Shown: positions 26,671 through 61,202 of the stretch, in pieces
How the letters are laid out: each line of letters begins with the position of its first letter
Numbering within the stretch: position 1 is the first letter of the stretch
From: Bacillota bacterium
GTDB taxonomy: Bacteria > Bacillota > Sulfobacillia > Sulfobacillales > Sulfobacillaceae
Direction: 5' to 3'
DNA length: 64,000 nt
Assembly (NCBI GenBank): GCA_021797515.1
Contig: JAJZZP010000032.1
Location: 1-64,000 of the forward strand
Position numbers and translations under genes: made by a program
The notes under the pieces: generated by a model
The model's database searches: none
Seen by the model: only the letters and a program-made list of their open reading frames with translations
What the model was told of the DNA's origin: nothing

Positions 26671-29600
26671 TTGCGAGACATGAAACAGGCATGGGGTCGA
26701 ATTTTAGCGATAAAAAGGCTGGGGACGACATGTGTCCTTTTTACGATCGCGATGTTGGCGGGTCTTTTAGCCTTCGGGTTGCACCAAAACGTGTCACCCG
26801 TTGCTTCTGTAGCGGAACACCCTCACCACTCACTTACCATCGTGGGCCCACACTTGGCGGTCAGCAACCGAACCACTTGGTTTGACTTGACGGCAGCCGA
26901 ACGCGACCGTATGTTGAGAAAACTCGCGATGATCGACGCCCATTTTAATCCCAGGATTGTTCAACAGCGTCATTCCTCCCTACTAACCGTGAACGTGACG
27001 CACTCCTTGCTGAGCGCCAGCCCTCTCGTATCCCACGTTCAGCGAGTAGGCACTGATCCCCAAGTGGTAACCACTTACGGTGCCTTTGCCAATCCTTTCA
27101 ACATTGCGGGCCCCTTGTCGACCCACGTTGACATCCCGTGTGTTTCCTCGTATGGAGTGACTGCCTGCTCGGGGGTTGCCTCGGCAGGACTAGGAGGAAT
27201 TAACCCCGCCGAGGGTTCGTTGTCGCTGGGAACGGCGGCTTTCGGCGTAGCTACGGCGGAAGCCGACGACTGGCTTGGTGCACTGTATTCTAGCCATGCT
27301 CCGCCTGGAGTCTCTTCTCAAGTGTCGGTGACGGCTACCATTTCACTGGAAGACATGGCTGGCGGGCTGAGCGGGATAGGGGTCAGTTGTGCCCCGACCT
27401 ATCTCAACTCCTCGGTCGGGTTGGCCACCAGCCCGACGCAGCAGAGCCAAACCGTCACGTCGTGCCTCAATAGTCTGGGAGTGTCGATCCCGGTGGTGGA
27501 TGCCACGGAAGCGGATCCTTTGGCTGCTCGCGCCTTTACCACCTTGATGGATCAAGTGGGAAATGCCACCTCGGTCCAAGGTATCGTATCCCAATGGCCC
27601 AGCCACAATACGGAGACAATCACCTGGTCGGGCACGTTGGATGGGGGCAACAATCTTTTGATTGAAGTCGATCCGCAAGTTTACGCCGCCGATTCGGGAG
27701 CGGGCACGGAGGTGCATGCGCTGAATGCCCTGGTTTCGGTCCAAGTCACCGAATCTTACCAATCTCCCTCGCCGGTCAGCGCCGAGCCGTGTGATGTCGG
27801 CCAGGCTTGCCGATCCGATACCTCCTTTCCCTGGAGCGGATACACGACGATTGACGGCATCCACGTCACCCAAGGCCAGCTCCCGCCCGGACTATCCTTG
27901 AGTCTGAACCCGGCCGGCACCGGATTTTTGTTGGTCGGGACCCCATCGACCGTTGGCACTTATCATTTCATATTGCAAGCCATTGACAGCCAAAATCAAC
28001 GCTTTGATGCCACGGTGACGGCGTCGGTGAATCCCGCCCCCGCTTATTTGGCGAATCCGAGTTCGGAATCCTATGCGGAGGTGGGAGTTCCCTATACCCA
28101 GGCGGTGACGGCCATCGATGGCACGCCGCCGTACACGCGGTGGGCCGTCACTCAAGGGCGGCTCCCACCTGGCATGCGATTGCAAACAGGGCCCGGCGGC
28201 ATGGTGTGGGTGCTGGGCACTCCAACACAGGCAGGCACGTACCTGTATGCGTTACAGGTAACCGACAGCGTCGGGGATCAAGGATACCAGGATGATCAGC
28301 AGATAATCGTGAAGTCCCGCCCAATCCTCACCGGTACCAGTGCCGGATCGATTGCTGGCAATACCACGACCTTGCCGCCTGCTGAGGAAGGGCAATATTA
28401 TCATCCGGTGACATTTGACGTGTCCGGTGGCGTCGCTCCCTACCAATGGCATTGGGGAGCCTGCTCCGGAACATTGCCACCGGGCCTCACGTTATCCCCC
28501 AACGGCGTGCTCGAAGGAACGCCGACCCAACCCGGAACCTACTGTTTCGCGGCTTGGGCAACGGACGGGAACGGGGTGACGGCGACCGCACCGGGATTAA
28601 TCAGCGCACCCGACTATACGCTGGTGGTTCATCGCCCGCTGACGTGGACCACCCCCAGCCTCCCGCCCGCCGAAATCGGGGCACCTTATCATGCCGCCTT
28701 ACAGGCTCAGCACGGGATTAAGCCCTATTCGTGGGGTTTGGAAAGTGCCAGTCTTCCGCCGGGCCTACACCTTAACTCCGTGACGGGCATAATCAGCGGT
28801 GTGCCGACTGGTCCCGCGGGATGTGCCAGTGCCGGGGGCGACTGGCAATATCTGCCGAACTTTGTGGTGTCCGACGCGTTGCAACCTTTAGGTGCCGAGG
28901 CCTTTCCATCCCATGCTCTGACCCTCACGGTCTATCCGGACCCCTGCGTTCACTCCGTGCTACCTGTGCTTGCACCTATCGGCCAAGCTTATTCAGGTTT
29001 TTTCGGGGTGGCGGCGGGAACAGGGGTGTCCCCTTTTCACTGGACCATAACCGGAAAGTTGCCGGCTGGACTTTCTTGGCATTCGGTGGCAGTCACGGGC
29101 CAACAGTGGGCAAGCCGAATCGCCATTATCGGCACACCGACCGCTGCAGCTACCAACACGAACATCACCGTCCGCATGACAGATGGGGCGGGCGGAACCT
29201 GGTCCCAAAGTTTTCCAGTCGGCGTGCCAGTGGCGTTGGTTTCCGGCTCGGCTCCCGGAGCCGACTGGGGAGCGGCTTACCGTTATCAAGCCCAAGCGGG
29301 TGGCGGGAACGGGGGCCCCTATATACTATCGCTGATTGCCGGAACACTCCCCCCGGGGTTACGCTTTGACCCTGCCACAGGCTACATTTCCGGGACGCCT
29401 ACGGTCCCAGTCGGACTCTATCCGTCTACGCCTCGCTCATATGCGTTCATACTGCAAGCGGCGGCAAATTCTCGTCTTGCCGGGGTTGACGTGCCGGCGC
29501 AAGGCCAAACTGTCTTCACGATTGTCGTGTCGCCCCCGCCCACGGTGACAACCACCGCCTTGCCCCTCGCGACCATCGGCCAAGGATATCAGGCGCAGTT

Positions 29601-31533
29601 GTCCGCCAGGGGCGGCACCGCCCCTGACACCTGGGCGGTGGTGGCCGGGAAATTGCCAGCAGGACTCTCGCTAAACCCCGCCACGGGAGAGATTTCGGGT
29701 ACGCCCACGGCCTCCGCCGTAACGCGCTCATTCACGGTCGCCGTTACCGATCGCTGGGGCGAAACGAGTCGAAGCTCCTCTTTGACGCTCCCGGTTACCC
29801 TGGCCATTTTGACACGTCATCTGCCATTAGCCGATCCCGGCGCAATCTACCACAGCGTCTTGGCGGCCGGAGGCGGGATCCCTCCTTACCATTGGGCATG
29901 GGCTTCCGGTTGCAACGTTCCGCCGTGGCTGACCCTGACTACCTCCGGCATCTTGTCCGGCCAGCCAGGAGCCGAGGCTGCGGGCCAATCTTTGTGTGTC
30001 CCCGTCGCGATCACGGATGCCTCCGGGCAAACGGCAACCAGCCGCCTGACGCTGACGGTTGCGACAGCCATACGGATAACCGCACCTCCCATATCATCTG
30101 CGGAAGTCGGGATACCGGCTGATATTCAAGAGACGGCAACGGGCGGCATTCCGCCTTACGTTTGGACCATCGCCCACAGAATTCTCCCGCCCGGCCTGTC
30201 CCTCACCCCAAGTGGGGCAATACGCGGCACCCCTACTAGGGCAGGATCATGGTCCGTGACATTGGCGGTGGCCGACAGCGAAGGCCAAACCGTGAAAACC
30301 CCCGTCACGGTGAATGTGGCCCCCCGATTGACATTTACCCAAGGGATTCTGACCCCGCCTGGATGCAAAACCGTTACGATCCACGGATATACGGCGCAAG
30401 TGTGTGCCGGCGTGTTCCCCCCGGCAGAAATCGGCGTACCCTATTCTTTCCGCCCAGAGGTGTCTGGCGGATTGCCTCCCTACGTATGGACAGTGTTGCC
30501 GGAGGCCCCACTTCCGTCCGGCCTCACAGTCGATCCTCAAACCGGTCACGTGTCCGGCATTCCCAGGGAAGCGATAGGATGTAACGTGATGGGAACCAGC
30601 GCCTGCCATGAGACCGTAGCTTTAGTGGTCACTGATCAGTTGGGGGCACATGCCGTCTTGGCCGCCGGAACTCAGGACGGAGCGGAACCGTTTGTCCTTT
30701 ATCCGCGCTTACGCCTAATCCCGGACTTTCCTACCAATCTCCAATGGACTTCGCCGAGCTTCCCCACTGGGGAGAGTCCGAACTCTCTGGCTCCGGCGTT
30801 TAACGAACCCGCGTCAGGAGTGCCGTACAACCTTTTGAACTCTGCCATTTTGACGCCGAATATGCCCATCACAGTGCATCTAGTCGCGGTGGGAGGAGAT
30901 CCAGCCGCGAATGACGTCTGGTCCGTGGTCCAAAGCCCCGCCAATCCGGTCTCGTTCATGACCTTTGCCAGTGGACCTCATCACGCGACATTGGTGGCGA
31001 CCACTGGCAATCAGTTGCTGATGCCGGGGATTTACAACGGTCAGGTCACAGTGACCGATGGTTTGGGGGGAACCGCCATGCTCGGGTTCAGTAATGTGAC
31101 ATTGTGGCCTTCAAACACTTTGCCATTACGCATTGTGACACCGGTGGTGCCCCCCGCCATCGTAGACGCCCCATATTTTGCTAATCTATTTGCCATTGGC
31201 GGTAATGGGCCCTATCGTTGGTCGTGGGCACCTGCTTCTGGATCCGCCATGCCGCCCGGTTTATCGCTCAACCCCCAAAATGGGACGGTAACGGGTCTTC
31301 CGACCCATGCGGGTTCGTACACTGTAATCGTAACCGCTACCGATAGCTTCCAGCAAATTCAAACCCAGATCTTGAAAGTCGTGGTGTCGCCCGGATCAAA
31401 TCGTCGGGTAACCCGCTTTCTCGGGGAAAGTAGGGATCGTTCCCCCATGGTCTCGGTCGATTTTCGCAACGGAATGGGGATAATCGACCAAAAAAAGTGC
31501 AATAACGCATTCCTACGAGATCGAGATAGGTGA
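26671..31533 (+). CDS. Giant secreted protein with about 11 Ig-like putative-adhesin (He_PIG type) repeats
   Basis: The 1620-residue protein has an N-terminal hydrophobic segment (about residues 17-37, a signal or anchor). A 330-residue region follows that I do not recognise. From about residue 370 on it consists of repeats of some 90-100 residues with the core LPPGLSLNPATGEISGTPT, then GTYxFxLxVTD. I count eleven such cores, plus a divergent stretch near 1350-1480. Such domains occur in large bacterial surface proteins that bind partners or build fibres. No sortase or S-layer motif is seen. The last 45 residues leave the repeat pattern and start at the hairpin at 31412, so the original C-terminus may be lost. 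TTG 26671 and ATG 26680 are alternative starts behind AAGGGGG. Confidence 0.8.
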   Translation: MRDMKQAWGRILAIKRLGTTCVLFTIAMLAGLLAFGLHQNVSPVASVAEHPHHSLTIVGPHLAVSNRTTWFDLTAAERDRMLRKLAMIDAHFNPRIVQQRHSSLLTVNVTHSLLSASPLVSHVQRVGTDPQVVTTYGAFANPFNIAGPLSTHVDIPCVSSYGVTACSGVASAGLGGINPAEGSLSLGTAAFGVATAEADDWLGALYSSHAPPGVSSQVSVTATISLEDMAGGLSGIGVSCAPTYLNSSVGLATSPTQQSQTVTSCLNSLGVSIPVVDATEADPLAARAFTTLMDQVGNATSVQGIVSQWPSHNTETITWSGTLDGGNNLLIEVDPQVYAADSGAGTEVHALNALVSVQVTESYQSPSPVSAEPCDVGQACRSDTSFPWSGYTTIDGIHVTQGQLPPGLSLSLNPAGTGFLLVGTPSTVGTYHFILQAIDSQNQRFDATVTASVNPAPAYLANPSSESYAEVGVPYTQAVTAIDGTPPYTRWAVTQGRLPPGMRLQTGPGGMVWVLGTPTQAGTYLYALQVTDSVGDQGYQDDQQIIVKSRPILTGTSAGSIAGNTTTLPPAEEGQYYHPVTFDVSGGVAPYQWHWGACSGTLPPGLTLSPNGVLEGTPTQPGTYCFAAWATDGNGVTATAPGLISAPDYTLVVHRPLTWTTPSLPPAEIGAPYHAALQAQHGIKPYSWGLESASLPPGLHLNSVTGIISGVPTGPAGCASAGGDWQYLPNFVVSDALQPLGAEAFPSHALTLTVYPDPCVHSVLPVLAPIGQAYSGFFGVAAGTGVSPFHWTITGKLPAGLSWHSVAVTGQQWASRIAIIGTPTAAATNTNITVRMTDGAGGTWSQSFPVGVPVALVSGSAPGADWGAAYRYQAQAGGGNGGPYILSLIAGTLPPGLRFDPATGYISGTPTVPVGLYPSTPRSYAFILQAAANSRLAGVDVPAQGQTVFTIVVSPPPTVTTTALPLATIGQGYQAQLSARGGTAPDTWAVVAGKLPAGLSLNPATGEISGTPTASAVTRSFTVAVTDRWGETSRSSSLTLPVTLAILTRHLPLADPGAIYHSVLAAGGGIPPYHWAWASGCNVPPWLTLTTSGILSGQPGAEAAGQSLCVPVAITDASGQTATSRLTLTVATAIRITAPPISSAEVGIPADIQETATGGIPPYVWTIAHRILPPGLSLTPSGAIRGTPTRAGSWSVTLAVADSEGQTVKTPVTVNVAPRLTFTQGILTPPGCKTVTIHGYTAQVCAGVFPPAEIGVPYSFRPEVSGGLPPYVWTVLPEAPLPSGLTVDPQTGHVSGIPREAIGCNVMGTSACHETVALVVTDQLGAHAVLAAGTQDGAEPFVLYPRLRLIPDFPTNLQWTSPSFPTGESPNSLAPAFNEPASGVPYNLLNSAILTPNMPITVHLVAVGGDPAANDVWSVVQSPANPVSFMTFASGPHHATLVATTGNQLLMPGIYNGQVTVTDGLGGTAMLGFSNVTLWPSNTLPLRIVTPVVPPAIVDAPYFANLFAIGGNGPYRWSWAPASGSAMPPGLSLNPQNGTVTGLPTHAGSYTVIVTATDSFQQIQTQILKVVVSPGSNRRVTRFLGESRDRSPMVSVDFRNGMGIIDQKKCNNAFLRDRDR
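31412..31426. repeat. Second copy of the GC-rich hairpin at 94-109
   Basis: CCCGCTTTCTCGGGG, identical over 15 bases to the sequence near the left end of the window. It lies where the giant repeat protein stops looking like its own family. Confidence 0.4.
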
Positions 31534-32045: not shown

Positions 32046-34106
32046 TTAGTGGCTGTTTAAAACCCCAACCACAATCGCTACAATGAGTGCCATCCAGATA
32101 TAGGCCACATATTGAGTGACACGTCCGGACTGAATTTGTCTTAAGTAACCGGCAACCCATCGTGCAGTCACCAAAATGGGACGGTAAAGATGCTCCTCTA
32201 GACGATAGACGATGGTGTGCCGATAGAAACGAACTCCTTCGACATCTACCCGAGAACGTTTCAAACCATAAAACGCTCCGAATGCAAGCCGGATGGGATG
32301 CACAAACCCTTCGGCAGAAAAACTGGTCTTGCCGCTATACGGCTCGAATCCCCCGGTCCACGGTGCTACCCTTCGCACTTTCCTACCGTGTCGAGCCCAT
32401 TGTCTAAGCAACCATACTAGTCCTACCAGGACAATGCCCATTCCTAGAAGAACGTAAGGATCTCCTACGGAAAACGCCTGAGGAAAAAGCACTGTGCCAG
32501 ATGCTCCAGGAGCCGGAACCAAATTGACCCCAATGGGTATCAATGGAGGCGCTGCGTGAGGATTGACGAAAGTGTCAGCCAATACATTTCCTGGGGTACT
32601 CAGTATAAACGCCAGAGAACGATTAAGCCAGGGTAGAAACCAAGGAATGCCCGGGCCACTAATGAATCCAAGGATTAAGGGCAACGCGAGGCCGTAACGA
32701 AAACTTGCCTTTGGTTCCGCTGCATCTTCCCACCCTGTTTGATGCAAAGGGCCCAAAAAGATGAATGCAAACCAACGAAGATATGTGGCTACTCCCAATG
32801 CCACGGCAATCGCAATCAAAACCCCCGCGATAACCAAAGCCAAATGCGTCAGCTTATCCGGTGTTCCCGGACTTAATGGTTTTAGAATAGACTCCAGTAA
32901 AAACCATTCGCCTAAGAATCCTCCCAGAGGCGGGACGGCAGCTAGTGTGACGGCAGCCCCTAACGTCCATCCCCCGGTCCAGGGAGCCCTGCGCATAAGA
33001 CCGCCTAGTCGATCCAAAGTATGCCCCCACTGCCCCGTAAAATCAGTGGCAGTAAACAATGTGAATTTAGCCCCTGCATGCATCACCAAGAGGGTAATGG
33101 CTCCGTCAAGTGCCATAGTAGCGGCGATATTACCCGGATCCAAACGAGTTTCGATATGCCAAACGCCTAGTGCGGCAAACACCAATCCCATAATCTCCAA
33201 TGTCGAATACGCTAGAATACGCTTAACGTGACGGGAAATGACACCATACAAAGCACCAGTAAGGGCCCCCAAGGTGCCTAGCACCAACAGCACCACACCC
33301 CAGGTGATTCCTGGATGTGTCAAATTGTCTAATGCCAAGATGCCGCTGATGGCCAAGGCCGTCAGAAGACCGGAGTATATCCCAGCAACCACTCCTGGGG
33401 CCTCAGGTTCCGCCATGGGGATCCACACCATAACCGGAAACAGACCCGCCTTAACCCCAAAGGCAATCAAAGCCAGTACCATGATGCCGTTAATAGCCCA
33501 TGGTTTTATGGTCCCGGCCGCAAATTTTAATGCGCCGAACCCGTCTCGAAGATTGCTCATTGCATGGGGCATGACCCAAGCCAAAGCCAACAACAAAAAC
33601 ATGCCCCCCAGTTCGGACAGCGCTAAAAGCGCCCATCCGGCATTCCATACCGGACGAGCACGTCGGACCGACACTAATCCAAGGTAGCTCAGTCCTGAAA
33701 TAAGCTCCCATGTAATCAACAGCATTAATCCACTGCCACTCCATAAGTAAAGACCCACCGATACCTCGAGCGGCAACAATGCGTATAGAATTTTCCGCCG
33801 AGCTGGGTGAGACAACAGAGCCAGATCCGACGCGAGAAACAACAGCCCGGCAACAGGAGACCACAATTGAGCCAACGGTAGCGGTGCTAATCGCAAACTA
33901 GACCAAGGTGCTGGCAAGGCGAGGTTTTGCGCCGTCAATGGATTTAAAGAAAAGGTCATCACCATCAGCGCCACAGCTCCCGCGCCGAACCACAGCGCAA
34001 GCCAACCTGAGGACCGTCTCGACGCCAGGGAATCCAGCCACGCTGCCGCCAGTAAACCGATAAGTAAAAAGACCAGCCACCCTAGAACCCACAATTCTGG
34101 TGTCAT
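32046..34106 (-). CDS. Ehr complex antiporter-like subunit (HyfB/NuoL-like)
   Basis: The 686-residue protein is a polytopic membrane subunit of the Mrp/NuoL/HyfB family: about 14-16 hydrophobic segments, with the family core VWIPMAEPEAPGVVAGIYSG (normally WLPDAHxxAPSPVSALLSG). In such complexes these subunits conduct protons or Na+. The usual Asp/His of the core are replaced by Met/Glu, so ion translocation may be altered. ATG 34106 is chosen because AGGAGG precedes it and it follows the small-subunit stop by one base; the frame opens further upstream inside that gene. Last gene of the operon. Confidence 0.85.
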   Translation of the reverse strand: MTPELWVLGWLVFLLIGLLAAAWLDSLASRRSSGWLALWFGAGAVALMVMTFSLNPLTAQNLALPAPWSSLRLAPLPLAQLWSPVAGLLFLASDLALLSHPARRKILYALLPLEVSVGLYLWSGSGLMLLITWELISGLSYLGLVSVRRARPVWNAGWALLALSELGGMFLLLALAWVMPHAMSNLRDGFGALKFAAGTIKPWAINGIMVLALIAFGVKAGLFPVMVWIPMAEPEAPGVVAGIYSGLLTALAISGILALDNLTHPGITWGVVLLVLGTLGALTGALYGVISRHVKRILAYSTLEIMGLVFAALGVWHIETRLDPGNIAATMALDGAITLLVMHAGAKFTLFTATDFTGQWGHTLDRLGGLMRRAPWTGGWTLGAAVTLAAVPPLGGFLGEWFLLESILKPLSPGTPDKLTHLALVIAGVLIAIAVALGVATYLRWFAFIFLGPLHQTGWEDAAEPKASFRYGLALPLILGFISGPGIPWFLPWLNRSLAFILSTPGNVLADTFVNPHAAPPLIPIGVNLVPAPGASGTVLFPQAFSVGDPYVLLGMGIVLVGLVWLLRQWARHGRKVRRVAPWTGGFEPYSGKTSFSAEGFVHPIRLAFGAFYGLKRSRVDVEGVRFYRHTIVYRLEEHLYRPILVTARWVAGYLRQIQSGRVTQYVAYIWMALIVAIVVGVLNSH

Positions 34107-34107
34107 T

Positions 34108-34650
34108 CTAAGTAGCCTCCTGCGCCAGACGAGGGTCACGCCCGTCGACAGCCCATAACAACCCTCGGATGATATCACCAGGTGACGGTGGACAGCCTTC
34201 AATAGACAAAGTGACAGGAATGATTCCAGATAATGACCCTATAACACCCGGTGCAGTTTTGAAGATGCCTCCAGAAATAGCGCATGCCCCTAATGCGATC
34301 ACGCGCTTCGGTTCGGTCATTTGTTCATAAACCTCCCTAATAATTGGCGCCATGGTCTCCGTAATCACCCCGGTTATCACTAAAATATCTGCGTGTTTCG
34401 GCGATGGGGTAAAGCTAAAACCGTAGCGGGTAAAATCATAATCGGGCCCCGACAATAAGCTAAGTTCAGATTCACATCCCTGACAAGACCCGGAATCTAG
34501 TTGACGTACCGCCATAGCCCGCCGAATGTAACGAGCTGGCATAGTGCCCGGCTGTATTCCCGAGTCATCCTGATGGAGCATCTGTTCCACCGTCAGATCT
34601 TGTTGAGTGGGAAATCCGGTCGTGTGTGGCCGCCGCACAATATTACGCAA
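34108..34650 (-). CDS. Ehr complex small Fe-S subunit (HyfI/HycG/NuoB-like)
   Basis: The 180-residue protein keeps all four cysteines of the proximal/N2 4Fe-4S cluster: Cys56 and Cys59 in SGSCQGCESE, Cys123 in GACAISGG, and Cys153 in EGCPPSPGD. Electron transfer through this subunit is therefore possible even though the partner large subunit has lost its NiFe site. The start is unclear: TTG 34650 lies 26 bases from the AGGAGGG ribosome site, and the upstream codons of the same frame (YYWHW before LRNIVRRP) look coding. Its stop is one base from the hyfB-like start. Confidence 0.88.
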   Translation of the reverse strand: MRNIVRRPHTTGFPTQQDLTVEQMLHQDDSGIQPGTMPARYIRRAMAVRQLDSGSCQGCESELSLLSGPDYDFTRYGFSFTPSPKHADILVITGVITETMAPIIREVYEQMTEPKRVIALGACAISGGIFKTAPGVIGSLSGIIPVTLSIEGCPPSPGDIIRGLLWAVDGRDPRLAQEAT

Positions 34651-34715
34651 CCAATGCCAATAATACGTAGCAAGCCCTCCTTTTTAGCGTTATCGCGCCA
34701 TATCAGGCAATACCT

Positions 34716-36152
34716 CTAACCATCCCATCCAGCCACGGTGTAGTTAAAGCTCGCTTCGATTATCGGAAAATCTTGCAGGATATTCTTATTGGCCATGGCC
34801 GGAGGGACCACATACCAGTTGCGAGCCGACGGTGTTGCCATATCTAGATGCTCTATCGTCAAGTTACAGGGATTAACCACCACGCGATATACCAGAAGGC
34901 CACGAGGTGCTTCCACAATTCCCACGCCCACTGCAACGTCGTCAGCAATTTCGGATTGCTCTTCGAATCCACCCAATGAACGAAGGGCATCCGGGTTCCA
35001 TCCTCCGATAAGGCGCCGTAGAAGCCCCAAACTTTGTTGGAGTTCAATGGCCTTAACAGAAAATCGGGCATACGAATCAGCCCCAGATTCCAACGGAGGC
35101 GCCAAGTCGGTTTCTGCATATCGCAAATAAGGACGGATGATCCGCATATCGCAGGCCCGTCCAGAAGACCGTCCTGTCGGCCCCACCGGTCTCACAAATT
35201 CTATCGTGGTTTTGGGAATGGTTCCCGCTCCGTGTAACCGATCCAAAAATGACGTCGTATTCTCCAGTCCATCGTGGATTCGATGAATATCATCTAAGAT
35301 TTCTACTATCTCGTGTCCGATCATTGCGGCGTTTTCTTGGAAAAACGATTTTGGCAGGCGAATCCCCCCTATTGCCAAGACGTCTCTAAGATACCGGTGG
35401 CCAAACAGGCGAAAATTCAAACGCAAAATCGATTCTTTATGGTGGAGATATTCCATCTGGGGCACTGGAAGTCCCGTGGACACGGAAAGCGCGGCCAAAT
35501 CTCCCAAATGGCTGTAGCTCCGCTCCAGTTCGGCCATAATCATTCTCGTGAGCGTCACTTCCGGGTCGACCCCTATCTGCAGCGCATTCTCCACAGCAAG
35601 ACAATACGCTAACCCGTGCGCAAACGCCGATGTCCCGGTTACTCTCTGTGCTAGCCCCAGCACGTCGGCCAACGCCTTTCCCTGACTCAGTTCCCGAATA
35701 TGGCGCTTCTTGAACCCATTCGCCAACTCCAGGTGGATGATTTCGTCTCCCATCACATGCAGCCGATACATCAAAGATTCAGACACATCTGCACGCACCG
35801 GGCCCAGCGGGTATAAAAAGACGCCTTTTCCGTGAACACGCCTTTCGACATGTTCTTCGCTGTTCCACGACAACGCGGGCAAAGTATCTTTTAATATTCG
35901 TTCAGCTGCAAGGATATCCCCGGCTCCAAAGTGGGATGGCCTAGGTACTTCCGATAAATCGCCGGTCAGCCGCCACTCATGTAATATCCCCGTGGTTGGG
36001 GATAACAGCAACGCAATTAACTGGTCGAGATGTCCTGTCAACAACACCACATCATGATCTTGTCGAAGCGCGACCAGACGTTTTTGCCAGTTATTGGGGT
36101 TGTCTGTTTGCTCAACAACATGCGGACTTTGAGCTTGCAATAGTGTCGCCAC
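34716..36152 (-). CDS. Ehr complex large subunit (HyfG/HycE/NuoD-like) lacking NiFe-site cysteines
   Basis: The 478-residue protein has the fused layout of HycE/HyfG: an N-terminal NuoC-like part (to about 120) and a NuoD/NiFe-hydrogenase large-subunit part. In true hydrogenases two CxxC pairs hold the NiFe centre. Here the first is QRVTGTSAFAHG (Thr172 and Ser175 in the cysteine places, His179 kept). The C-terminal DPCxxC is replaced by FPIIEASFNYTVAGWDG, and there is no maturation-peptidase tail. No hydrogenase activity is expected. This is the defining property of Ehr (energy-converting-hydrogenase-related) complexes. GTG 36152 follows GGGAGG. Confidence 0.9.
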   Translation of the reverse strand: MATLLQAQSPHVVEQTDNPNNWQKRLVALRQDHDVVLLTGHLDQLIALLLSPTTGILHEWRLTGDLSEVPRPSHFGAGDILAAERILKDTLPALSWNSEEHVERRVHGKGVFLYPLGPVRADVSESLMYRLHVMGDEIIHLELANGFKKRHIRELSQGKALADVLGLAQRVTGTSAFAHGLAYCLAVENALQIGVDPEVTLTRMIMAELERSYSHLGDLAALSVSTGLPVPQMEYLHHKESILRLNFRLFGHRYLRDVLAIGGIRLPKSFFQENAAMIGHEIVEILDDIHRIHDGLENTTSFLDRLHGAGTIPKTTIEFVRPVGPTGRSSGRACDMRIIRPYLRYAETDLAPPLESGADSYARFSVKAIELQQSLGLLRRLIGGWNPDALRSLGGFEEQSEIADDVAVGVGIVEAPRGLLVYRVVVNPCNLTIEHLDMATPSARNWYVVPPAMANKNILQDFPIIEASFNYTVAGWDG

Positions 36153-36178
36153 AACAAAATACCTCCCGAATTCCTGGG

Positions 36179-37621
36179 TTATATCGGACTTTTCAACAGT
36201 TCATGCGCTAAATGATGCCAAAGGGGGTGCACGACCAGTGGCATCCCGACTCCCCCCACAAGGACGAGCAGTGCCAACACCAAATTCGGTGCCACCAGTG
36301 CCCAAGGTTCCCTAATTTTCGCCAGCCGGTCCTGAGTCCCCGGTACCCAAAGCCAATTGGGGATGCGCAATGCAATCCCAGAAAATATAACTATCAACAA
36401 ACCCACCGCGATAATATCGGGGATCCGGTTACTGGCAGACTGGAATCCGCCCACCAAAATCAGCCATTCGCTCCAAAATGGGGCGAATGGCGGCAAACCC
36501 ACGATCGCGGCGGATCCAAGCGCCAGCATGCCCCCGGTCCATGGCGTGCGTGCCAAAAGCGCCTTAGCTCCTTGGGTCGACTCGGACGTGTGGTACAAAA
36601 GGCGCACCGTGCCGGCATTTTGAAACAATAAGGTTTTGCTAGAGGCATGGGTCCAAATATGAAACACCGCGCCTACTAGAGCAATACCGCCAAATCCTAT
36701 CCCCAGGCTGATAAGTCCAATGTGCTCAATACTGGAATACGCCCACAATCTTTTCAGGTCCGTCTGAAATGCGACAAACGCGGCTGCCACTAACAATGAT
36801 AGCAGTCCCAAAATAATTAACCCGTCTTTCAAGTCTTGGGCCGGCACCGTAGGGGTTAAAACACCGAACAGGTGGTATACAATGACGACAGCTCCCGCGA
36901 GCTTCAACCCAGAAAGCAATGCAGAAACCGGAGCTGGGGCTTGACTGTGGGCGTCAGGCAACCAGGTGTGAAATGGTGCGAGACCAGCTTTGGTTGCATA
37001 GCCAATCATCGCCATATAAGCGCCAATTAAGATCCACCGCGCTTTTCCCATATGATGACCAATTGCCGTCCAAGTAGCATAGTCCCACTGACTGATCGGA
37101 TGGCCGGTAGCCGCCAAAGCCACTGCCGTGCCCACCAAAGCAGCTAAACCGCCCGCCTCAGTCACCAAAAGATATTTCCAGGCCGCTTCAATCGCGCCCC
37201 GATCCCTGGGCGTTCCAACCAGAAACACGGAACTCAAGGTTGCTGCTTCAATTCCCAGCCATAACCACAAGAAGTTGGTCCAAATCGCAACTGCCACTAG
37301 CGACGCGATAAAGATCAGAAGAAGACTGCCATACTGTTTGATTTGTGCGTCGTTCCAGTGCAAATGTTTCGCTTCCGCCCGTACATACGGCTCAGAAAAC
37401 CATAGCGCTATCACCGAAATTACGGCCACAACCAAGTAAAACCACGTCGCCAAAGCATCGGGCAGGTGCCACTGATCACCTGCTAACAAGGCCAAAGAAA
37501 CGACCAATACCCCGATAGCCGTTCGCTCCAACCATATGGCCCACGATGCCGGCATTACCAGAACGAACACCGCAAGGACAACCAACACCACTACTGGTAG
37601 TGCAAGCGAAATGCTCATCAC
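36179..37621 (-). CDS. Ehr complex antiporter-like subunit (HyfF/NuoN-like)
   Basis: The 480-residue polytopic protein of the NuoN/M/L family shows the core FHTWLPDAHSQAPAPVSALLSG with the functional Asp and His kept, and the Lys-containing loop AFQTDLKRLWAYSSIEHIG. It is the more canonical of the two ion-channel subunits in this operon. It starts at GTG 37621/ATG 37618 overlapping the stop of the preceding gene, so translation is coupled. Confidence 0.88.
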   Translation of the reverse strand: MMSISLALPVVVLVVLAVFVLVMPASWAIWLERTAIGVLVVSLALLAGDQWHLPDALATWFYLVVAVISVIALWFSEPYVRAEAKHLHWNDAQIKQYGSLLLIFIASLVAVAIWTNFLWLWLGIEAATLSSVFLVGTPRDRGAIEAAWKYLLVTEAGGLAALVGTAVALAATGHPISQWDYATWTAIGHHMGKARWILIGAYMAMIGYATKAGLAPFHTWLPDAHSQAPAPVSALLSGLKLAGAVVIVYHLFGVLTPTVPAQDLKDGLIILGLLSLLVAAAFVAFQTDLKRLWAYSSIEHIGLISLGIGFGGIALVGAVFHIWTHASSKTLLFQNAGTVRLLYHTSESTQGAKALLARTPWTGGMLALGSAAIVGLPPFAPFWSEWLILVGGFQSASNRIPDIIAVGLLIVIFSGIALRIPNWLWVPGTQDRLAKIREPWALVAPNLVLALLVLVGGVGMPLVVHPLWHHLAHELLKSPI

Positions 37622-38253
37622 CCTGTCAACTCCTCTACATCTCTGACGTCCGTCGTATGCAGCAGGGTGAAAATTTTACGCGATAGCCACGCGAGTAAAA
37701 CAGCGATAGCCAAGGCGGCCAGTTCCATGCCCACCCCTGCGAATTCCGGAAGCGGCCCAGCCACGGATACGGCCAGGACACCGGAAACGGTGTCCAAACT
37801 CAAGAGCGCCCAAGAAAGACTCCAGGTTTCATACCGCGCCGAAAGATGAATGAAACTTATAAACCAAGCCCCTATTAAAATCCCCGACATCAAGGGGCGA
37901 TCCAGCCCGGGCACCTCACCTAGAGCCAGTCCTGCTGCAGTGACGATTGCGGCTACCATCAATAAAAAGGCCATACCTACTGCGCTTTTCGCTCCATAGT
38001 CTTTGGACGCCACTTCGCCGTGAGAAGACAGAATCCGCGGGATAACGATTTCTTTGATGGCCAGTACCAACCCGACATCAAGCCACAGCCATGGTTCATT
38101 ATTAAGAGCCAGAACCGCCAATAGACCTGCCTCTCCCACCGCCTGCAACCGATAACTGGCTTGGGCCGATCGATGAGCCTTTACCAACAACAAAGATATC
38201 GTCATAATCCAGATTAATGAAGCGAACATTCTCCCTAATAACTGTTCTGTCAT
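37618..38253 (-). CDS. Ehr complex membrane subunit (HyfE/NuoK-like)
   Basis: About 211 residues with six to seven hydrophobic segments. The central DVGLVLAIKEIVIPRIL matches the HyfE/HycD-neighbour family related to NuoK, and NNEPWLWLDVGLV carries the acidic residue. ATG 38253 is preceded by GAGGGAG; the frame extends to 38310 without a better ribosome site. It overlaps the hyfF-like gene by four bases. Confidence 0.82.
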   Translation of the reverse strand: MTEQLLGRMFASLIWIMTISLLLVKAHRSAQASYRLQAVGEAGLLAVLALNNEPWLWLDVGLVLAIKEIVIPRILSSHGEVASKDYGAKSAVGMAFLLMVAAIVTAAGLALGEVPGLDRPLMSGILIGAWFISFIHLSARYETWSLSWALLSLDTVSGVLAVSVAGPLPEFAGVGMELAALAIAVLLAWLSRKIFTLLHTTDVRDVEELTG

Positions 38254-38338
38254 CACCCGGTATCTCCCTCTGCAACAACATGTTTCTTGGTACGGCAAAG
38301 TTCCGCACAACCAAATGTGCCGCTACCGTCGCTGTCGT

Positions 38339-39295
38339 TTAAATGCCGATCCCGATAGCCGCGCTAATCGCACCGACGAAAGCCAGCACGACGGCAGCAG
38401 CTAGAAAATCCACATTCCGAATCAGCCGTAATTTAGCAAACCCTGCCTCAATAGTGACCAGTATCAGCCCTGCCGCAATAATTTTTAGCGCCACCAAAAA
38501 CATGGCTAAGAGTATCGCCATCGGAGCTAGTGAGGTGGACAATCCCCATGGGGTCAGCAATACATTCATCATGATGATGTTTAACACCAAAAATTTCATC
38601 CACCCTCCCCACTCGTAAAGAGCCAAGTCTTGGCCGCTGGACTCAAAGGTCCGCGCAGGATCAATCATCGAGAGTTCTTGGCTCGATGAGGGATTGTCTA
38701 CAGGAATTCGGCCTGTCTCCGCAATCAGCAACATAAACCAACCGGCCACTACCAATATATGGGCCGGGCTCAAATTCCACGGTGAGTGTGCCAATGCCTG
38801 ATTGACAACAAATGGAATGGTGGCTCCTGCCGTACTCGCCGCAATAAATATCAGCAAGAGGACCAAAGGTTCGGTAAATGTGGCAATGAGGCGAATGCGG
38901 CTAACCCCGAGCGCAGGATAGACACTACCGCTGTCCAGAGATGCCAGCAAGAGTGCAAGTCCGCCGCCTGCTAAAATCATCCCTCCGCCCAACATATCTC
39001 CCATCCAAGCAAACGGTAGTGGAAATGAGGTGAGAACCGGTATCAACATGGCAACAATGGGCGGTGCCACAAAATACAATATGGGTGCCCACTCGGAGAC
39101 CCAACTGGTTTGGTGGGAACGCACTGTCTCTTTATGCCACCACTTCCACAAGTCCCGATAAGGCTGCCAAATGGGAGGGCCATATCGCCGGGCCAAGCGC
39201 GCGCGATAACGTTCTAAAATACCTTTTAACAAAGGCGAAAAGAACAACACAAATAAAACCTGGAGCGCTTGAACGACATATTGATTCACACCCAT
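38339..39295 (-). CDS. Ehr complex membrane subunit (HyfC/NuoH-like)
   Basis: About 318 residues with eight hydrophobic segments. The NuoH/HycD family blocks are GPPIWQPYRDLWKWWHKE near residue 40 and AETGRIPVDNPSSSQELSMI near residue 205; the latter is the acidic loop that links quinone or redox chemistry to ion movement. The frame opens at 39454, but the family N-terminus begins at about 39295 (ATG, or GTG 39289), just after GGGGG. It is the first gene of the six-gene operon. Confidence 0.87.
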   Translation of the reverse strand: MGVNQYVVQALQVLFVLFFSPLLKGILERYRARLARRYGPPIWQPYRDLWKWWHKETVRSHQTSWVSEWAPILYFVAPPIVAMLIPVLTSFPLPFAWMGDMLGGGMILAGGGLALLLASLDSGSVYPALGVSRIRLIATFTEPLVLLLIFIAASTAGATIPFVVNQALAHSPWNLSPAHILVVAGWFMLLIAETGRIPVDNPSSSQELSMIDPARTFESSGQDLALYEWGGWMKFLVLNIIMMNVLLTPWGLSTSLAPMAILLAMFLVALKIIAAGLILVTIEAGFAKLRLIRNVDFLAAAVVLAFVGAISAAIGIGI

Positions 39296-39525
39296 CCCCC
39301 GCTCACAATCGGATATCCCCACGAAAAAGCGAAACGGCCCCTGTACACCATAAGTGTCAGGAGTCATTAACCGCCACTGGGGGTAGTTTCGGACTGCTGA
39401 GTCCGGGGCGGATTCCATCGCCCATAAATCCATGTAATAATCGCAGTGTAGCAAGTCACGCTATAGTCGTCAACGGTGGTGTTGCACTCTTTTGATTTAA
39501 AGCGATAAACCAAGGTGCCCCCCAG

Positions 39526-44683: not shown

Positions 44684-44935
44684 AAAAAAATACCGCCACC
44701 TCGTTCTAGGGGCGATGTAATCGCGGTACCACCCTATTCGCTGTCAAAAAGACAGCCTTAAGTGTTCGTTAACGGGAACCCCCGGGGATCTTACTCTTGG
44801 TTCGCATCCCGACTCCAGGGCCATAATCAGTTCGGTTTTGGGTTCCGGGCTTTCACCACCCCCCGGCTCGCTTTCACCCGTTCCCAACCGACGCTCCCCT
44901 TCCGCGTCTTAGTGTTGATATTCTACCAATAGTCT
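44684..44935 (-). promoter_or_regulatory. T-box riboswitch upstream of metG
   Basis: The minus strand carries the T-box core AGGGTGGTACCGCGA (44720-44734). Upstream are stem I elements: AGCGAGCCGGGGGGTGGTG, followed by ACTGATTATGGCCCTGGAG, in which ATG is the likely methionine specifier just before the 3' side of stem I. Downstream, a GC-rich stem around 44691-44716 followed by seven T (44684-44690) is the terminator. Uncharged tRNA-Met would favour read-through into metG. Confidence 0.88.
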
Positions 44936-54932: not shown

Positions 54933-55463
54933 TTATTGTTCTAATAAGAAAAACTCCACCATCTCATCTTGCTCCACACCTAGCTGAGAAAAATATTGCC
55001 CCCGGTAAAAAATGAGCGGGGTATGGTGTTCTTGCTCCCCAAAGTCCTGAACACGCCCAATAATAATGGTGTGGTCTCCGGCCACGATCCCTTGATCTTT
55101 TTGGCATAAAAACCATGCGGCCGCGTCATGCACCACGGGAACTCCTCCCAACACTGCAGCCAACTGCGGTTGGGCTTCGGGATGATGCTGCCGACGGCCA
55201 AAGATTTCGGAGACCAGCTTCTGCCCTGAATGCAAGATACTAATGGTAAACACCGCATCTGGGGACGCCAAATAGCGGTGCATTTGGCTCACATTGCTCA
55301 CCGATACCGCCACCAACAACGGATCCAGCGACACGGACATAAATGCATTAGCAGTCATCCCGTGAATTTCCGATCCTTGTTTGGCCATAATCACCGTAAT
55401 ACCGGTCGCAAATTTACTACAGGCCTGGCGAAAGTTCCGCTGTCGGTCTATGAAATGGTTCAT
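54933..55463 (-). CDS. hpaC: Flavin reductase component of 4-hydroxyphenylacetate 3-monooxygenase
   Basis: The 176-residue protein belongs to the HpaC/flavin reductase-like domain family: RQACSKFATGITVI, HGMTANAFMSVSLDPLLVAV and the flavin-binding FTISILHSGQ. It supplies reduced FAD to the HpaB oxygenase. It is 28 bases behind hpaD and is the last gene of the operon. Confidence 0.92.
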   Translation of the reverse strand: MNHFIDRQRNFRQACSKFATGITVIMAKQGSEIHGMTANAFMSVSLDPLLVAVSVSNVSQMHRYLASPDAVFTISILHSGQKLVSEIFGRRQHHPEAQPQLAAVLGGVPVVHDAAAWFLCQKDQGIVAGDHTIIIGRVQDFGEQEHHTPLIFYRGQYFSQLGVEQDEMVEFFLLEQ

Positions 55464-55491
55464 CTGGATCGATCCCTCCCTGGGCTATGCC

Positions 55492-56484
55492 CTAATCGAC
55501 CATAATCGGTCGATCCGGCAATATCGGATTCGTTGTCGGCATGGGGTTTTCGTTCCAATCAAAAGTGACCATCGATTCATCAAACCACCGCTTTGGAGCT
55601 GGTGCTCCCCAAAACGTTTGTCTTTGTGGATCGTCGAGATCCCACCGTATTGGCTCCCAGTCAGGATCTGCCAGTAAATAGTCGCCGGTAAAAAGTTCAA
55701 TGCGGTTGCCATCCGGATCTCTTAAGTACAAAAAGAAGGCGTTAGTGGTTCCGTGGCGTCCCGGCCCGCGTTCGATGTTGTCCACATAGCCAAGCGCGGC
55801 CAGACGATCCGCCGCCGCCAAGATCTGATCTTTTGATGAAGCAATAAAGGAGGCATGGTGGAACCGTGGCCCTTTGCCGTTGGATATAGCCAGATCATGC
55901 GATGTTTGCTTGCGATGCAGCCATGCCCCCCAAAGTCGGTCTTTGCCATTTTCCACACTGACGGTATACTCACTCATTTGAAATCCCAAGTGTTCTTGAT
56001 ACCAGTGCGCCGCCTCCTCCACGTGGGGAGTAATATAGTTGACATGGTCTAGCCGCATCACCTCGGCACCCCGATATTGCTCGAACCGCTGCAGCAACCA
56101 CGGTACCTGGTCGACTTGATAAAAAAATTCTATCGGGAAACCGAAGGGGTCTTGCGCCCGCAGCACACGGCCGAGCGCCCGCTCTACACCGATCTCCCAG
56201 TACACGTCAACTCCCAGTGTCCCGAGATATTGGGCTACGACATCTAGATCGTTTTCGCTGGAGACGCGAAATCCCACATGAGCCACGCCAGGTTCCGAAG
56301 CCTGTCGCAGTATCAGGTTATGGTGCGTCCGATCTTCGAGGCCTCGTAAATAGAGACGATCGGCATCGCGTTCGGTCACCGTAAGCCCGACCGCGTCGAC
56401 ATAAAATGCTTGGGCGCGATCCAAATCGGTCACCCGATACTCGACATGGTGCGTTCGCAGCACATTGAATGCGTTGCCACCCAT
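55492..56484 (-). CDS. hpaD: 3,4-dihydroxyphenylacetate 2,3-dioxygenase
   Basis: The 330-residue type I extradiol dioxygenase consists of two vicinal-oxygen-chelate modules. Metal ligands are seen in RLDHVNY (His), PRFHHASF (His) and NRIELFTGDY (Glu) of the second module. The C-terminal tail (after residue 290) with WGAPAPKRWFDE is typical of homoprotocatechuate dioxygenases. It opens the ring of 3,4-dihydroxyphenylacetate. It starts 3 bases after the hpaB stop. Confidence 0.93.
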   Translation of the reverse strand: MGGNAFNVLRTHHVEYRVTDLDRAQAFYVDAVGLTVTERDADRLYLRGLEDRTHHNLILRQASEPGVAHVGFRVSSENDLDVVAQYLGTLGVDVYWEIGVERALGRVLRAQDPFGFPIEFFYQVDQVPWLLQRFEQYRGAEVMRLDHVNYITPHVEEAAHWYQEHLGFQMSEYTVSVENGKDRLWGAWLHRKQTSHDLAISNGKGPRFHHASFIASSKDQILAAADRLAALGYVDNIERGPGRHGTTNAFFLYLRDPDGNRIELFTGDYLLADPDWEPIRWDLDDPQRQTFWGAPAPKRWFDESMVTFDWNENPMPTTNPILPDRPIMVD

Positions 56485-56487
56485 GGA

Positions 56488-57966
56488 CTATCCCTCCTGT
56501 CCTAATAGGGGATCCGGGGTTTCATTCAGCAAATCCCGAATCAGTTGTTTTGCCGGCTCCTTGTCATAGTTGTGGTACAATGCTCCGGCCATACGGACCG
56601 GGTCTCCGAAGAAGAAGCGTTCGTACAGTACTTGCCGATTGCCAAAGGTAGAGATAGCCGTATCCCAAGCCAGTCGAAAGAGCCGGGTCCGATCCACTGC
56701 ACTGGTGTTCTTGGCTTGATAAAACCGATCAATGTCGGGTCTCAGCTCTGGATTAGTAAAATCTCTTTCCGACGGGATCGCCATCAATCCGCCGGCTGCC
56801 AACTGCTGCACAATCTCCACCAAACGCGGATACACTTTAGGGAATGTATTGCGGGCAATATTCAAAGGCGTCCAGTCAGGAGTCATGATCCCCCATTGGT
56901 TTAACTTGGCATTGGTTTCACTGGCCACCAAAAAAGCCTTCATGGTTTCCAGCGCAATCACCACTTCTGCCACTTTCTCCTGCACGTGTTGGAATTGCTC
57001 AATGCCAATAGTGTCCACGATAAGACTCGTCACGCCGAGGACAAACTCGGCTTTCGCCGTATTTTTAACGATCACCTGATGGGTCATGTGCGGTGTGGCA
57101 TCTGTATCCGCATACAGCTTATTGCATAGGTCGCCATCTTCCAACACAAAGATCCGTTCCCATGGCACTAATACATCATGAAACACCATCACGGCATCCA
57201 TTTCTTCAAAGCGGGATCCTAACGGGTGGTCAAAGTGGGACTTGCCATAATCAAAGGTTTCCCGGCAAATCAGCCGCAGTCCCGGGGTCGAAAGCGGCAA
57301 TGCAAAAGCAAACGCGTAGGGTCGGTCTTCCTCGTTATTGCGTATCACTGTTGAGGGAAAAACCAGAATTTCATCAGCTAACGGCAAAGTGGCTAACATT
57401 CGAGCTCCGCGGATAATGACCCCCTCCGAGGTTTTTTCCACGACGCGGGCGGCCAGATACGGATCCGCCTGCTGTGCCGCTGATACCCCCCGGTTGGCTT
57501 GGGGCAAAATCAAGGTATGTGTCAAGCATAGATCATTTTCACGCACATATTCGTAGTATTTGCGGACATTATCGCTATAGCGCGAATCTTCCGTGCCAAA
57601 AAAAGGCGCCGCGGCGGCAATCGCCATGAGTTCGCTATTGAGATAATCGGGTGCGCGTCCCATCATTCCGTGGGCGTAACGGGCCCAGTGCTGCATCATG
57701 GTTCGCCGTCGGGCCAGATCTTCTTTCGTGTGCGGCTGCATAAAGGAGAGTCCTACTAGATTGCCGGTCGAAGGCGATCGGTACGTCATGTCCGGCTGCA
57801 AATGCGGATCATGCTGCATGTCATAAAGATGTGCCATGGATTGAGCTATATTGCGAAACGCCGGATGTTCCGTAATTTTTCCCTCTACCTTCTCGCCATC
57901 AATCCATAGATCGCGTACAGCGCCATCTAGGTCATTTAGATATTGCTGTCCGGTACGAATTCCCAT
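56488..57966 (-). CDS. hpaB: 4-hydroxyphenylacetate 3-monooxygenase, oxygenase component
   Basis: The 492-residue FADH2-using enzyme has the HpaB/acyl-CoA-dehydrogenase-like layout: TGQQYLNDLD start, NDLCLTHTLILPQANRG, the active-site region GARMLATLPLADEILVFPS, HDVLVPWERIFV, and GDPVRMAGALY. It hydroxylates 4-hydroxyphenylacetate to the catechol that HpaD cleaves. AAGGGGG precedes ATG 57966. Its flavin reductase partner HpaC is two genes downstream. Confidence 0.96.
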   Translation of the reverse strand: MGIRTGQQYLNDLDGAVRDLWIDGEKVEGKITEHPAFRNIAQSMAHLYDMQHDPHLQPDMTYRSPSTGNLVGLSFMQPHTKEDLARRRTMMQHWARYAHGMMGRAPDYLNSELMAIAAAAPFFGTEDSRYSDNVRKYYEYVRENDLCLTHTLILPQANRGVSAAQQADPYLAARVVEKTSEGVIIRGARMLATLPLADEILVFPSTVIRNNEEDRPYAFAFALPLSTPGLRLICRETFDYGKSHFDHPLGSRFEEMDAVMVFHDVLVPWERIFVLEDGDLCNKLYADTDATPHMTHQVIVKNTAKAEFVLGVTSLIVDTIGIEQFQHVQEKVAEVVIALETMKAFLVASETNAKLNQWGIMTPDWTPLNIARNTFPKVYPRLVEIVQQLAAGGLMAIPSERDFTNPELRPDIDRFYQAKNTSAVDRTRLFRLAWDTAISTFGNRQVLYERFFFGDPVRMAGALYHNYDKEPAKQLIRDLLNETPDPLLGQEG

Positions 57967-58002
57967 GAAAAATCCCCCTTAAGTTTTGATGTTACTGTTG
58001 AA

Positions 58003-59496
58003 TCACGAGGTGCCCACCCGTGGAATGGGATGGGTGCCCAAAGCCACGTGGACGGTTTTCCATTCGGTGTAGAAATCAAAGCTATAGACACCGCCTTCAC
58101 GGCCAATGCCACTCCACTTGGATCCGCCAAACGGTGTCCGCAGATCCCGTACATTGTGTGAGTTCAGCCACACCATGCCAGATTCTACTGCTTGCGACAC
58201 CCGATTCGCCCGAGCCACGTCGCGTGTCCAGACATAGGCAGCAAGTCCGTAGCGAACCTGGTTGGCCATGGCCATGGCCTCTGCTTCATCGTGAAACCGA
58301 AGCACCGTCAGAACAGGGCCAAAGATTTCTTCCTGCGCTACCCGCATGTAGGGAAGAACCTTCGTTAACAAAGTCGCTTCTAAGAAATTTCCCTGAAGCC
58401 ATCCAGATGGACGATTCCCTCCAACGACCACCTGAAAACCTTCAGATTCAGCCAGGTCAATATAACTTTTGACCCGTTGCCAATGCTCCGCGTGAATCAA
58501 AGGACCCAGTTCGGTTGTTTCATCAAATGGATTGCCTACGCGGACTCGGCGGATGCGCTCCGCTAGCGCCGCTTCAAAACGATCCGCGATGCTGTCTTGG
58601 ATCAATAATCGAGAACCCGCCGTGCAGCGTTCTCCATTTAACGTAAACATGCCAAACAAGGTCGCGTCTAGCGCACGGTCAAAATCTGCATCCTCAAAGA
58701 CGATAACTGGTGATTTCCCGCCCAATTCCATGGAAAACCGTTTTAAGTACTGGGCGCCGTTGCGCAAGATTTCTTGACCCGTAGTGGTTTCACCGGTGAA
58801 CGAAATCAGCGGTACATCGGGATGGGAAACCAATGCCGCTCCCGCAGTCTCGCCGAGTCCGTGGATCACGTTAAACACCCCGGGAGGCAAATCGGCTTCC
58901 TGGATAATGCGGCTCAAACGTTCTGCGGTAATCGGAGACCACTCGGCGGGCTTCAGTACCGCCGTATCACCAGATGCCAAACAAGGGGCAATTTTCCAGG
59001 TTTCCAGCATTAAGGGCGTGTTCCAGGGAGTAATCAAACCCGCCACCCCCACGGGTTGACGAATGGCATAGTTTTGAAAGTGAGGCGGGTTGGGGAAGGC
59101 TTCTCCGGTCATACGTGTCGCCATTTCGGCAAAGAACCGAAAATTCTCTGCCGCTCGTTCGATTTGGCCCAAGGTTTGTCCAATGGGGATGCCGGTATCC
59201 AATGTTTCCAGAGAAGCCAAAGCCTCCCGGTCCTGGATCATGCCGTCGGCAATGCGATTCAAGTATCGTGCGCGTTCCCGGCCGGGCATATCGCGCCACA
59301 CCACAAAAAATGCCTCCCGTGCAGCACGCACCGCCTTATCCACCGCCGCGACGTCTCCTGACGCTACCTGAGTCAGCGGTTGATTAGTGGCAGGATCCCA
59401 ATCATCAAACCAGGCATCGCTGTTGTCCACAAATTCTCCATTGATGAAATGACGAATTTTATGGGGCACCAATGCTAGTGTATCGTTCCGGGTCAT
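58003..59496 (-). CDS. hpaE: 5-carboxymethyl-2-hydroxymuconate semialdehyde dehydrogenase
   Basis: The 497-residue aldehyde dehydrogenase has ITPWNTPLMLETWKIAPCLA, the NAD-binding FTGETTTGQEI, catalytic Glu in MELGGKSPVIVFEDAD and Cys in NGERCTAGSRLL. Context in the hpa operon gives the substrate, the semialdehyde formed by HpaD. Its start overlaps the hpaG stop by four bases. Confidence 0.92.
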   Translation of the reverse strand: MTRNDTLALVPHKIRHFINGEFVDNSDAWFDDWDPATNQPLTQVASGDVAAVDKAVRAAREAFFVVWRDMPGRERARYLNRIADGMIQDREALASLETLDTGIPIGQTLGQIERAAENFRFFAEMATRMTGEAFPNPPHFQNYAIRQPVGVAGLITPWNTPLMLETWKIAPCLASGDTAVLKPAEWSPITAERLSRIIQEADLPPGVFNVIHGLGETAGAALVSHPDVPLISFTGETTTGQEILRNGAQYLKRFSMELGGKSPVIVFEDADFDRALDATLFGMFTLNGERCTAGSRLLIQDSIADRFEAALAERIRRVRVGNPFDETTELGPLIHAEHWQRVKSYIDLAESEGFQVVVGGNRPSGWLQGNFLEATLLTKVLPYMRVAQEEIFGPVLTVLRFHDEAEAMAMANQVRYGLAAYVWTRDVARANRVSQAVESGMVWLNSHNVRDLRTPFGGSKWSGIGREGGVYSFDFYTEWKTVHVALGTHPIPRVGTS

Positions 59497-61162: not shown

Positions 61163-61202
61163 CTATCGTTGTCACTCCTCTTGGCATGTGTAATGCTTAA
61201 TC

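Follow-up and report, generated by a model that had tools for sequence, protein, structure and literature searches.

A fluoride riboswitch precedes an Ehr operon lacking the NiFe site in Sulfobacillaceae and suggests a role in fluoride stress

Organisation of the ehr operon

The window analysed here is a 64,000-nucleotide stretch of DNA from a Bacillota bacterium of the family Sulfobacillaceae (assembly GCA_021797515.1, contig JAJZZP010000032.1, positions 1 to 64,000 of the forward strand). It contains a six-gene ehr operon, encoding a complex that resembles group 4 hydrogenases and complex I, with a fluoride riboswitch upstream of it. An initial annotation of this DNA had described the operon and overlooked the riboswitch, which gives the strongest hint of what the operon does. 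The evidence comprises sequence, largely from metagenome-assembled genomes, and includes a sample of 41 genomes of relatives, in which the window type is named Ehr-1 and the others Ehr-2 and Ehr-3.

The operon consists of six minus-strand open reading frames (ORFs) in the order C-E-F-G-I-B, spanning 39295-32046; all six were found as initially annotated. Five have Pfam or NCBIfam assignments. ehr C (38339-39295, ATG at 39295) encodes a NuoH/HyfC-like membrane anchor (Pfam NADHdh, 3.7e-26). ehr F (36179-37621) and ehr B (32046-34106) encode antiporter-type subunits, respectively HyfF/NuoN-like and HyfB/NuoL-like (Pfam Proton_antipo_M, 1.3e-46 and 7.6e-29). ehr G (34716-36152) was identified by Pfam, motif alignment and AlphaFold as the large subunit, of the NuoD/nickel-iron (NiFe) hydrogenase type, with its NiFe ligands replaced, while ehr I (34108-34668) encodes a NuoB-like small subunit with one [4Fe-4S] site (Pfam Oxidored_q6, 1e-27). 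The sixth, ehr E (37618-38253), is a HyfE-like membrane subunit with a conserved operon position and a weak match to NCBIfam PRK11492 (1.3e-4). The NuoH-, NuoN- and NuoL-like labels of the initial annotation hold, and its label 'NuoK-like' for ehr E is loose, given the weak PRK11492 match (E about 1e-4).

In many orthologs, the E/F and I/B junctions have 4-bp overlaps. The dN/dS values of 0.06-0.15 against the sister species indicate purifying selection on all six genes, which read as intact. The start of the small subunit, initially placed at 34650, needs a small correction: orthologs start with ATG (MYYWHW), and this position corresponds to an ACG codon at 34668, 7 nt behind a GGAGG. The ACG is either a rare start or an assembly error, with TTG at 34650 as the alternative start.

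A fluoride riboswitch upstream of the operon

A fluoride riboswitch aptamer (RF01734, crcB motif) lies at 39351-39431 on the minus strand and ends about 55 nt before the start codon of ehr C. It was revealed by a permissive Rfam scan and a genome search, matching the model over its full length (1-64) with 31.1 bits (E 5e-6 in a 3.1-kb search against all Rfam families). A purpose-built model, made from Ehr leaders and including the window sequence, scores it at 70.9 bits; the Rfam model agreed wherever both were run, except for scores near the cut. The 27 other leaders aligned with it come from orthologs and score up to 49.4 bits. Each of the three helices, the pseudoknot among them, shows covariation in the alignment, with seven pairs changed on both sides, a level reached by none of 500 shuffles. 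In 15 of the 28 aligned sequences, the window included, one pseudoknot pair is non-standard. Ehr-1 riboswitches of the window's family have A or U opposite C at one pseudoknot pair, possibly giving a weaker or altered switch.

A candidate sigma-70-like promoter (39445-39473, minus strand; TTGACG-17-TACACT, with TG before the second hexamer) is located just upstream of the aptamer. It is a pattern match only, and the only site found where 0.3 were expected. A possible expression platform was read from the sequence at 39323-39363 (minus strand), where CTCCTGACAC and GTGTaCAGGGG form a hairpin followed by a T run. The hairpin is present in the minimum-free-energy fold and might compete for the CTCC of the pseudoknot; a scan for consensus terminators found none.

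The large subunit has lost the NiFe site

The initial annotation had noticed Thr172 and Ser175 in place of the first CxxC of the large subunit, and a C-terminus reading FNYTVAGWDG with no CxxC; both are seen in the sequence (T172-G-T-S175...H179, compared with CGxCxxxH of hydrogenases). All four NiFe cysteines are replaced, by T172/S175 and then by T/G at the C-terminus, and E125, H179 and R417 are kept. Neither of the hydrogenase ligand motifs RxCGxCxxxH and DPCxxC occurs. T172, T174, S175 and H179 are invariant across 23 aligned Ehr-1 orthologs. E125 is likewise invariant in Ehr-1, at the position of E21, the proton-transfer Glu of MbhL. Since the substitutions are common to all orthologs, sequencing errors, which the initial annotation had named as a possible cause, do not account for the missing cysteines. 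Nor was the second intact large subunit that it had considered found in the genome, whose five matches are three Ehr and two NuoD proteins. The genome content is three Ehr operons and two nuo loci, with no intact hydrogenase large subunit found. A second nuoB/nuoD-like copy (L008) stands on a short contig of this genome (C164), apart from the larger nuo operon (L009).

HypD was not found in the source genome (assembly 93.5% complete) or in other genomes of the genus, so none of the three Ehr complexes here could receive a NiFe site through the known Hyp pathway. Most Ehr-1 carriers among the relatives likewise have no HypD; co-occurrence of HypD with Ehr-1 was considered and rejected, since Ehr-1 occurs in many HypD-less genomes. 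The complex has the features of the Ehr class, namely a group-4-like large subunit without the NiFe CxxC, accompanied by HyfB/C/E/F-like, NuoH-type and NuoB-like subunits. Its initial filing as an Ehr-type non-hydrogenase stands, with the NiFe ligands absent, HypD not found and the clade separate from HycE, HyfG and NuoD. Mapping onto a known structure and a look for quinone-pocket residues had also been proposed. The AlphaFold model of the large subunit (pLDDT 84) gives HycE of formate hydrogenlyase (FHL; 7z0s_E) as its best PDB match and the closest solved structure, with a template modelling score of 0.85. Of the quinone pocket, Nqo4 His38 and Tyr87 are not conserved (S/A124 and G/T/A173).

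Three Ehr types and their association with the riboswitch

Ehr-1, Ehr-2 and Ehr-3 form separate clades and, together with a group from Alicyclobacillus, Desulfosporosinus and Ammonifex, stand apart from HycE/HyfG and NuoD. Ehr-2 has also lost all four NiFe cysteines, and Ehr-3 invariantly keeps three of the four (one Cys before an invariant Asp, plus CYSC). The association with the riboswitch was counted for an element 3.1-3.9 kb upstream of ehr G on the same strand. It was found at 27 of 30 Ehr-1 loci in the 41 relatives; at the other three the contig ends too soon upstream, making it 27 of 27 testable loci. All nine Ehr-2 loci have the element, which is absent upstream of all Ehr-3 (0/13), nuoD (0/31) and intact group 4 (0/2) loci. 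Among 57 named-genome records, some of them the same genomes as in the sample of relatives, it accompanies all 38 testable Ehr-1 loci and 9 of 12 of the Alicyclobacillus type. Gene order follows the same division. The order C-E-F-G-I-B goes with the riboswitch in the loci read, except in one near-clonal lineage (L125-L127), and the orders B-C-E-F-G-I or I-B-C-E-F-G, Ehr-3 among them, are without it; outside Bacillota this correlation covers about a dozen plasmid loci.

The riboswitch also precedes Ehr relatives in Alicyclobacillus, Desulfosporosinus, Burkholderia, Caballeronia and Mycobacterium, some of them within fluoride-resistance islands. On annotated plasmids, these islands hold crcB, pyrophosphatase, enolase and MutS pairs, a gene set known from fluoride resistance, as well as a CLC-family channel gene and DUF190, and Rfam places fluoride riboswitches directly upstream of their Ehr operons. 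Two Burkholderia plasmid islands (L156, L136) carry several fluoride riboswitches, and one of the plasmids is typed as conjugative. The source genome itself encodes a pyrophosphatase-enolase operon, a MutS-pair operon and a second Ehr operon, each headed by a riboswitch. crcB is close to Ehr-1 in four relatives (G009, G014, G018 and G021). A CrcB search of the source genome gave no match; CLC-family matches are present, to which sequence assigns no ion type. Regulation of the operon by fluoride appears well supported.

Redox centres and membrane arm

The small subunit keeps the four cluster cysteines reported initially (C56, C59, C123 and C153, numbered from 34650), with CxxC rather than the tandem CC of NuoB. 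Three or four of them are retained in all 47 Ehr-1 orthologs, C59 being replaced by Pro in four and C56 by Ser in two. A ferredoxin-like subunit or other cluster protein is missing from the Ehr-1 operon, and the ortholog alignment has no conserved Cys in the membrane subunits. By eye, the N-terminus of the Ehr-1 small subunit suggested a remnant of a ferredoxin subunit; this was rejected, as a profile comparison aligned the core only.

In the Alicyclobacillus, Desulfosporosinus and Ammonifex group, a subunit with two [4Fe-4S] clusters is separate or fused (L118, L129). Ehr-2 keeps exactly one cluster's four cysteines of the ferredoxin domain (CP...CxxCxxC), the other whole cluster being lost. 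In the riboswitch-linked plasmid complex of M. branderi, all four small-subunit cluster cysteines are replaced (L135, 13126-13917) and one ferredoxin cluster is kept. Ehr-1, with the proximal cluster only, and M. branderi, with one ferredoxin cluster only, have no redox centre in common. Allomeiothermus (L139) has a cluster-cysteine loss like that of M. branderi, but without the riboswitch. The Burkholderia and Caballeronia complexes retain two ferredoxin clusters, and redox use is likely in these members and in Ehr-1.

No conserved neighbour gene that might be a redox partner of Ehr-1 was found outside the window's genus. Two candidate electron donors were rejected. In three genomes of the genus (L007, contig C31 of the source genome, 7289-3570; L062; L071), the Ehr-3 operon is directly followed by genes like glpA, glpB and glpC, but this holds for this genus only, and Ehr-3 is another, riboswitch-free type. 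In L125-L127, a pyridine-nucleotide oxidoreductase is encoded upstream of Ehr, but as a separate gene and in one near-clonal lineage. The initial annotation had proposed electron transfer to or from an unknown partner; for this group the proposal is weakened, because the window type lacks a ferredoxin-like subunit and no single redox centre is common to the riboswitch-linked members.

The membrane arm is conserved. Ehr C keeps E142, E193, R196 and E207 as in HyfC/NuoH; in Ehr F, E125, E145, K211, H218, K290, H325, K329 and E385 are invariant; and Ehr B has conserved H343, K347 and a Glu. The residues of the antiporter-type and NuoH-like subunits are conserved throughout, M. branderi included. 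Coupling to ion movement, as initially suggested and as suspected, together with a redox reaction, for Ehr complexes as a class, is plausible because these pump residues are conserved. Taken as a whole, the initial interpretation appears partly supported.

Proposed role of the complex

At low pH fluoride occurs as HF, which passes through membranes and dissociates into H+ and F- within the cell; the cell is acidified and, it is assumed, has to export protons (PMC12831704). In the same study, S. thermosulfidooxidans was fully inhibited on sulfur, but with iron its activity persisted at 1.5 mM F-. Among riboswitch-linked classes, Na+/H+ antiporters come next in frequency after the exporters (PMC11139923). 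Beyond the anatomy, the switch and the loss of the NiFe site, which are read directly from the DNA, we infer a transport function and a driving force. We think it probable, with considerable reservation, that Ehr-1 is a fluoride-induced, NiFe-free, complex-I-like complex that translocates ions and rids the cell of protons brought in with HF. The operon would be expressed in response to intracellular fluoride through the leader riboswitch. In acid, HF would enter by diffusion and dissociate into H+ and F-, so that pH and proton-motive force collapse; the complex would restore both by ion transport across the membrane, most likely the expulsion of H+. A fluoride-induced complex mostly of antiporter-type subunits fits a need for proton export under HF. 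Electrons would probably drive the transport, with a soluble low-potential carrier as their donor, the one cluster of the small subunit as relay and an acceptor bound where the active site used to be; this step is proposed because all 47 Ehr-1 orthologs keep three or four cluster cysteines.

Several points weigh against this proposal. The window riboswitch scores below the Rfam gathering score of 34, and a default scan at that cut therefore misses it. Its pseudoknot has one A-C mismatch, of a kind common to most family members. There is no electron donor gene nearby, and redox centres are not conserved among riboswitch-linked Ehr complexes, which weakens the redox-driven part. The repeated loss of these centres is a real argument that some members may not be redox-driven. 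Possible, though unlikely, is a fluoride-induced but redox-silent secondary transporter, similar to Mrp Na+/H+ antiporters, that transfers no electrons and exchanges H+, Na+/K+ or perhaps F-. Redox parts have been lost repeatedly while the membrane arm was retained: a NiFe site is found in none, Ehr-1 has no ferredoxin domain, Ehr-2 has lost one ferredoxin cluster, C59 is lost in four and C56 in two Ehr-1 orthologs, and M. branderi has no small-subunit cluster cysteines, keeps its membrane charges and shares no redox centre with Ehr-1. M. branderi is, however, a single sequence on a long branch, all Ehr-1 proteins have at least three cluster cysteines, and Burkholderia and Caballeronia have two ferredoxin clusters. 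Put more broadly, and rather doubtfully, the whole riboswitch-linked Ehr clade might be complex-I-type machinery that has been 'unplugged' from redox chemistry and protects against HF by moving protons, cations or fluoride itself without any redox reaction, with the ex-hydrogenase subunit serving for coupling or ligand binding.

The remaining readings fare worse. A general respiratory Ehr complex, an energy-conserving ferredoxin (or similar) to menaquinone oxidoreductase, would be near the initial interpretation; it is improbable, since every testable ortholog has a fluoride riboswitch, complex I is also present in the genome, Nqo4 H38 and Y87 are not conserved and there is no ferredoxin subunit, although complex I and FHL are similar to it in fold and subunits and the complex I-type charges are kept. 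The three-Cys proximal clusters of some Ehr-1 orthologs, as in Pyrococcus MBS (PMC7684303), and the sulfur metabolism of Sulfobacillus (PMC4378227) might suggest a sulfane-sulfur or polysulfide reductase whose reactive cluster has an open iron. This is very improbable given that most orthologs keep the CxxC, that E125 is invariant in Ehr-1 and absent in MBS, and that the riboswitch ligand is fluoride. Formate hydrogenlyase or hydrogenase, the annotation of homologs in the riboswitch literature, reflects homology to HycE/HyfG and is almost certainly wrong here: there are no NiFe ligands, HypD was not found, and the operon has no formate dehydrogenase or HycB-like gene. Hydrogenase activity is already refuted by the sequence.

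Other features of the window

Next to the ehr operon, a GC-rich region (26671-31533) encodes a 1620-aa putative secreted protein with repeated units, which has no obvious relation to ehr. A T-box leader lies at 44705-44913 upstream of a metG-like gene (Rfam 96 bits), and a cluster at 54933-61868 resembles, judged by eye only, aromatic degradation of the 4-hydroxyphenylacetate type.

Relation to known systems

The study of Justice et al. 2014 (PMC4378227) reports such six-gene clusters in all Sulfobacillus, likens them to Ehr, notes that NiFe motifs are lacking and gives the function as unknown. The large subunit of Sulfobacillus AMDSBA4, from that set, is 86% identical to the window's, and the sister species (G003) matches AMDSBA4. 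The finding of the initial annotation, as stated, was thus already known. The passages of that paper covered here do not mention the riboswitch, three orthologous types or their differing regulation. A literature search found no paper linking Ehr complexes with the fluoride riboswitch; Baker et al. 2012 lay outside this search, and priority is not certain.

The operon has homologs of HyfB, C, E, F, G and I of E. coli FHL-1/FHL-2 (Hyc/Hyf), but no NiFe site, no HyfA, HyfD or HyfH homologs and no formate dehydrogenase. Pyrococcus MBS is also a group-4-derived complex without a working NiFe site; it keeps two of the four NiFe cysteines and lacks an equivalent of MbhL E21, whereas Ehr-1 keeps E125 (PMC7684303). 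MBS has a three-Cys proximal cluster and two further arm clusters, where the window has four cysteines and its operon encodes no additional cluster protein. Respiratory complex I has similar NuoB, D, H and L/N modules and charged residues; the operon differs in having CxxC rather than tandem CC, no NuoE, F, G or I, and neither H38 nor Y87.

'Formate hydrogen lyase' has been described as a common riboswitch-linked enzyme and read as formate oxidation (Weinberg 2010, PMC2864571; review PMC11139923). These loci share with ours the upstream RNA class and the neighbours mutS, enolase, pyrophosphatase and crcB. The literature takes them for formate-oxidising enzymes, whereas here every riboswitch-linked large subunit aligned is without NiFe cysteines; on sequence grounds the name is wrong for all riboswitch-linked loci in this analysis. 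The riboswitch divides Ehr complexes into switch-linked and switch-free kinds, along gene order. Two loose ends are thereby joined: the Ehr complexes, so far without an assigned function, and the puzzling 'formate hydrogenlyase' genes of the fluoride-riboswitch regulon. If the proposed role is true, both would be one thing, with a simple role in the HF stress of acid-loving bacteria, which would bear on fluoride toxicity in bioleaching and on the repurposing of complex-I-type machines.

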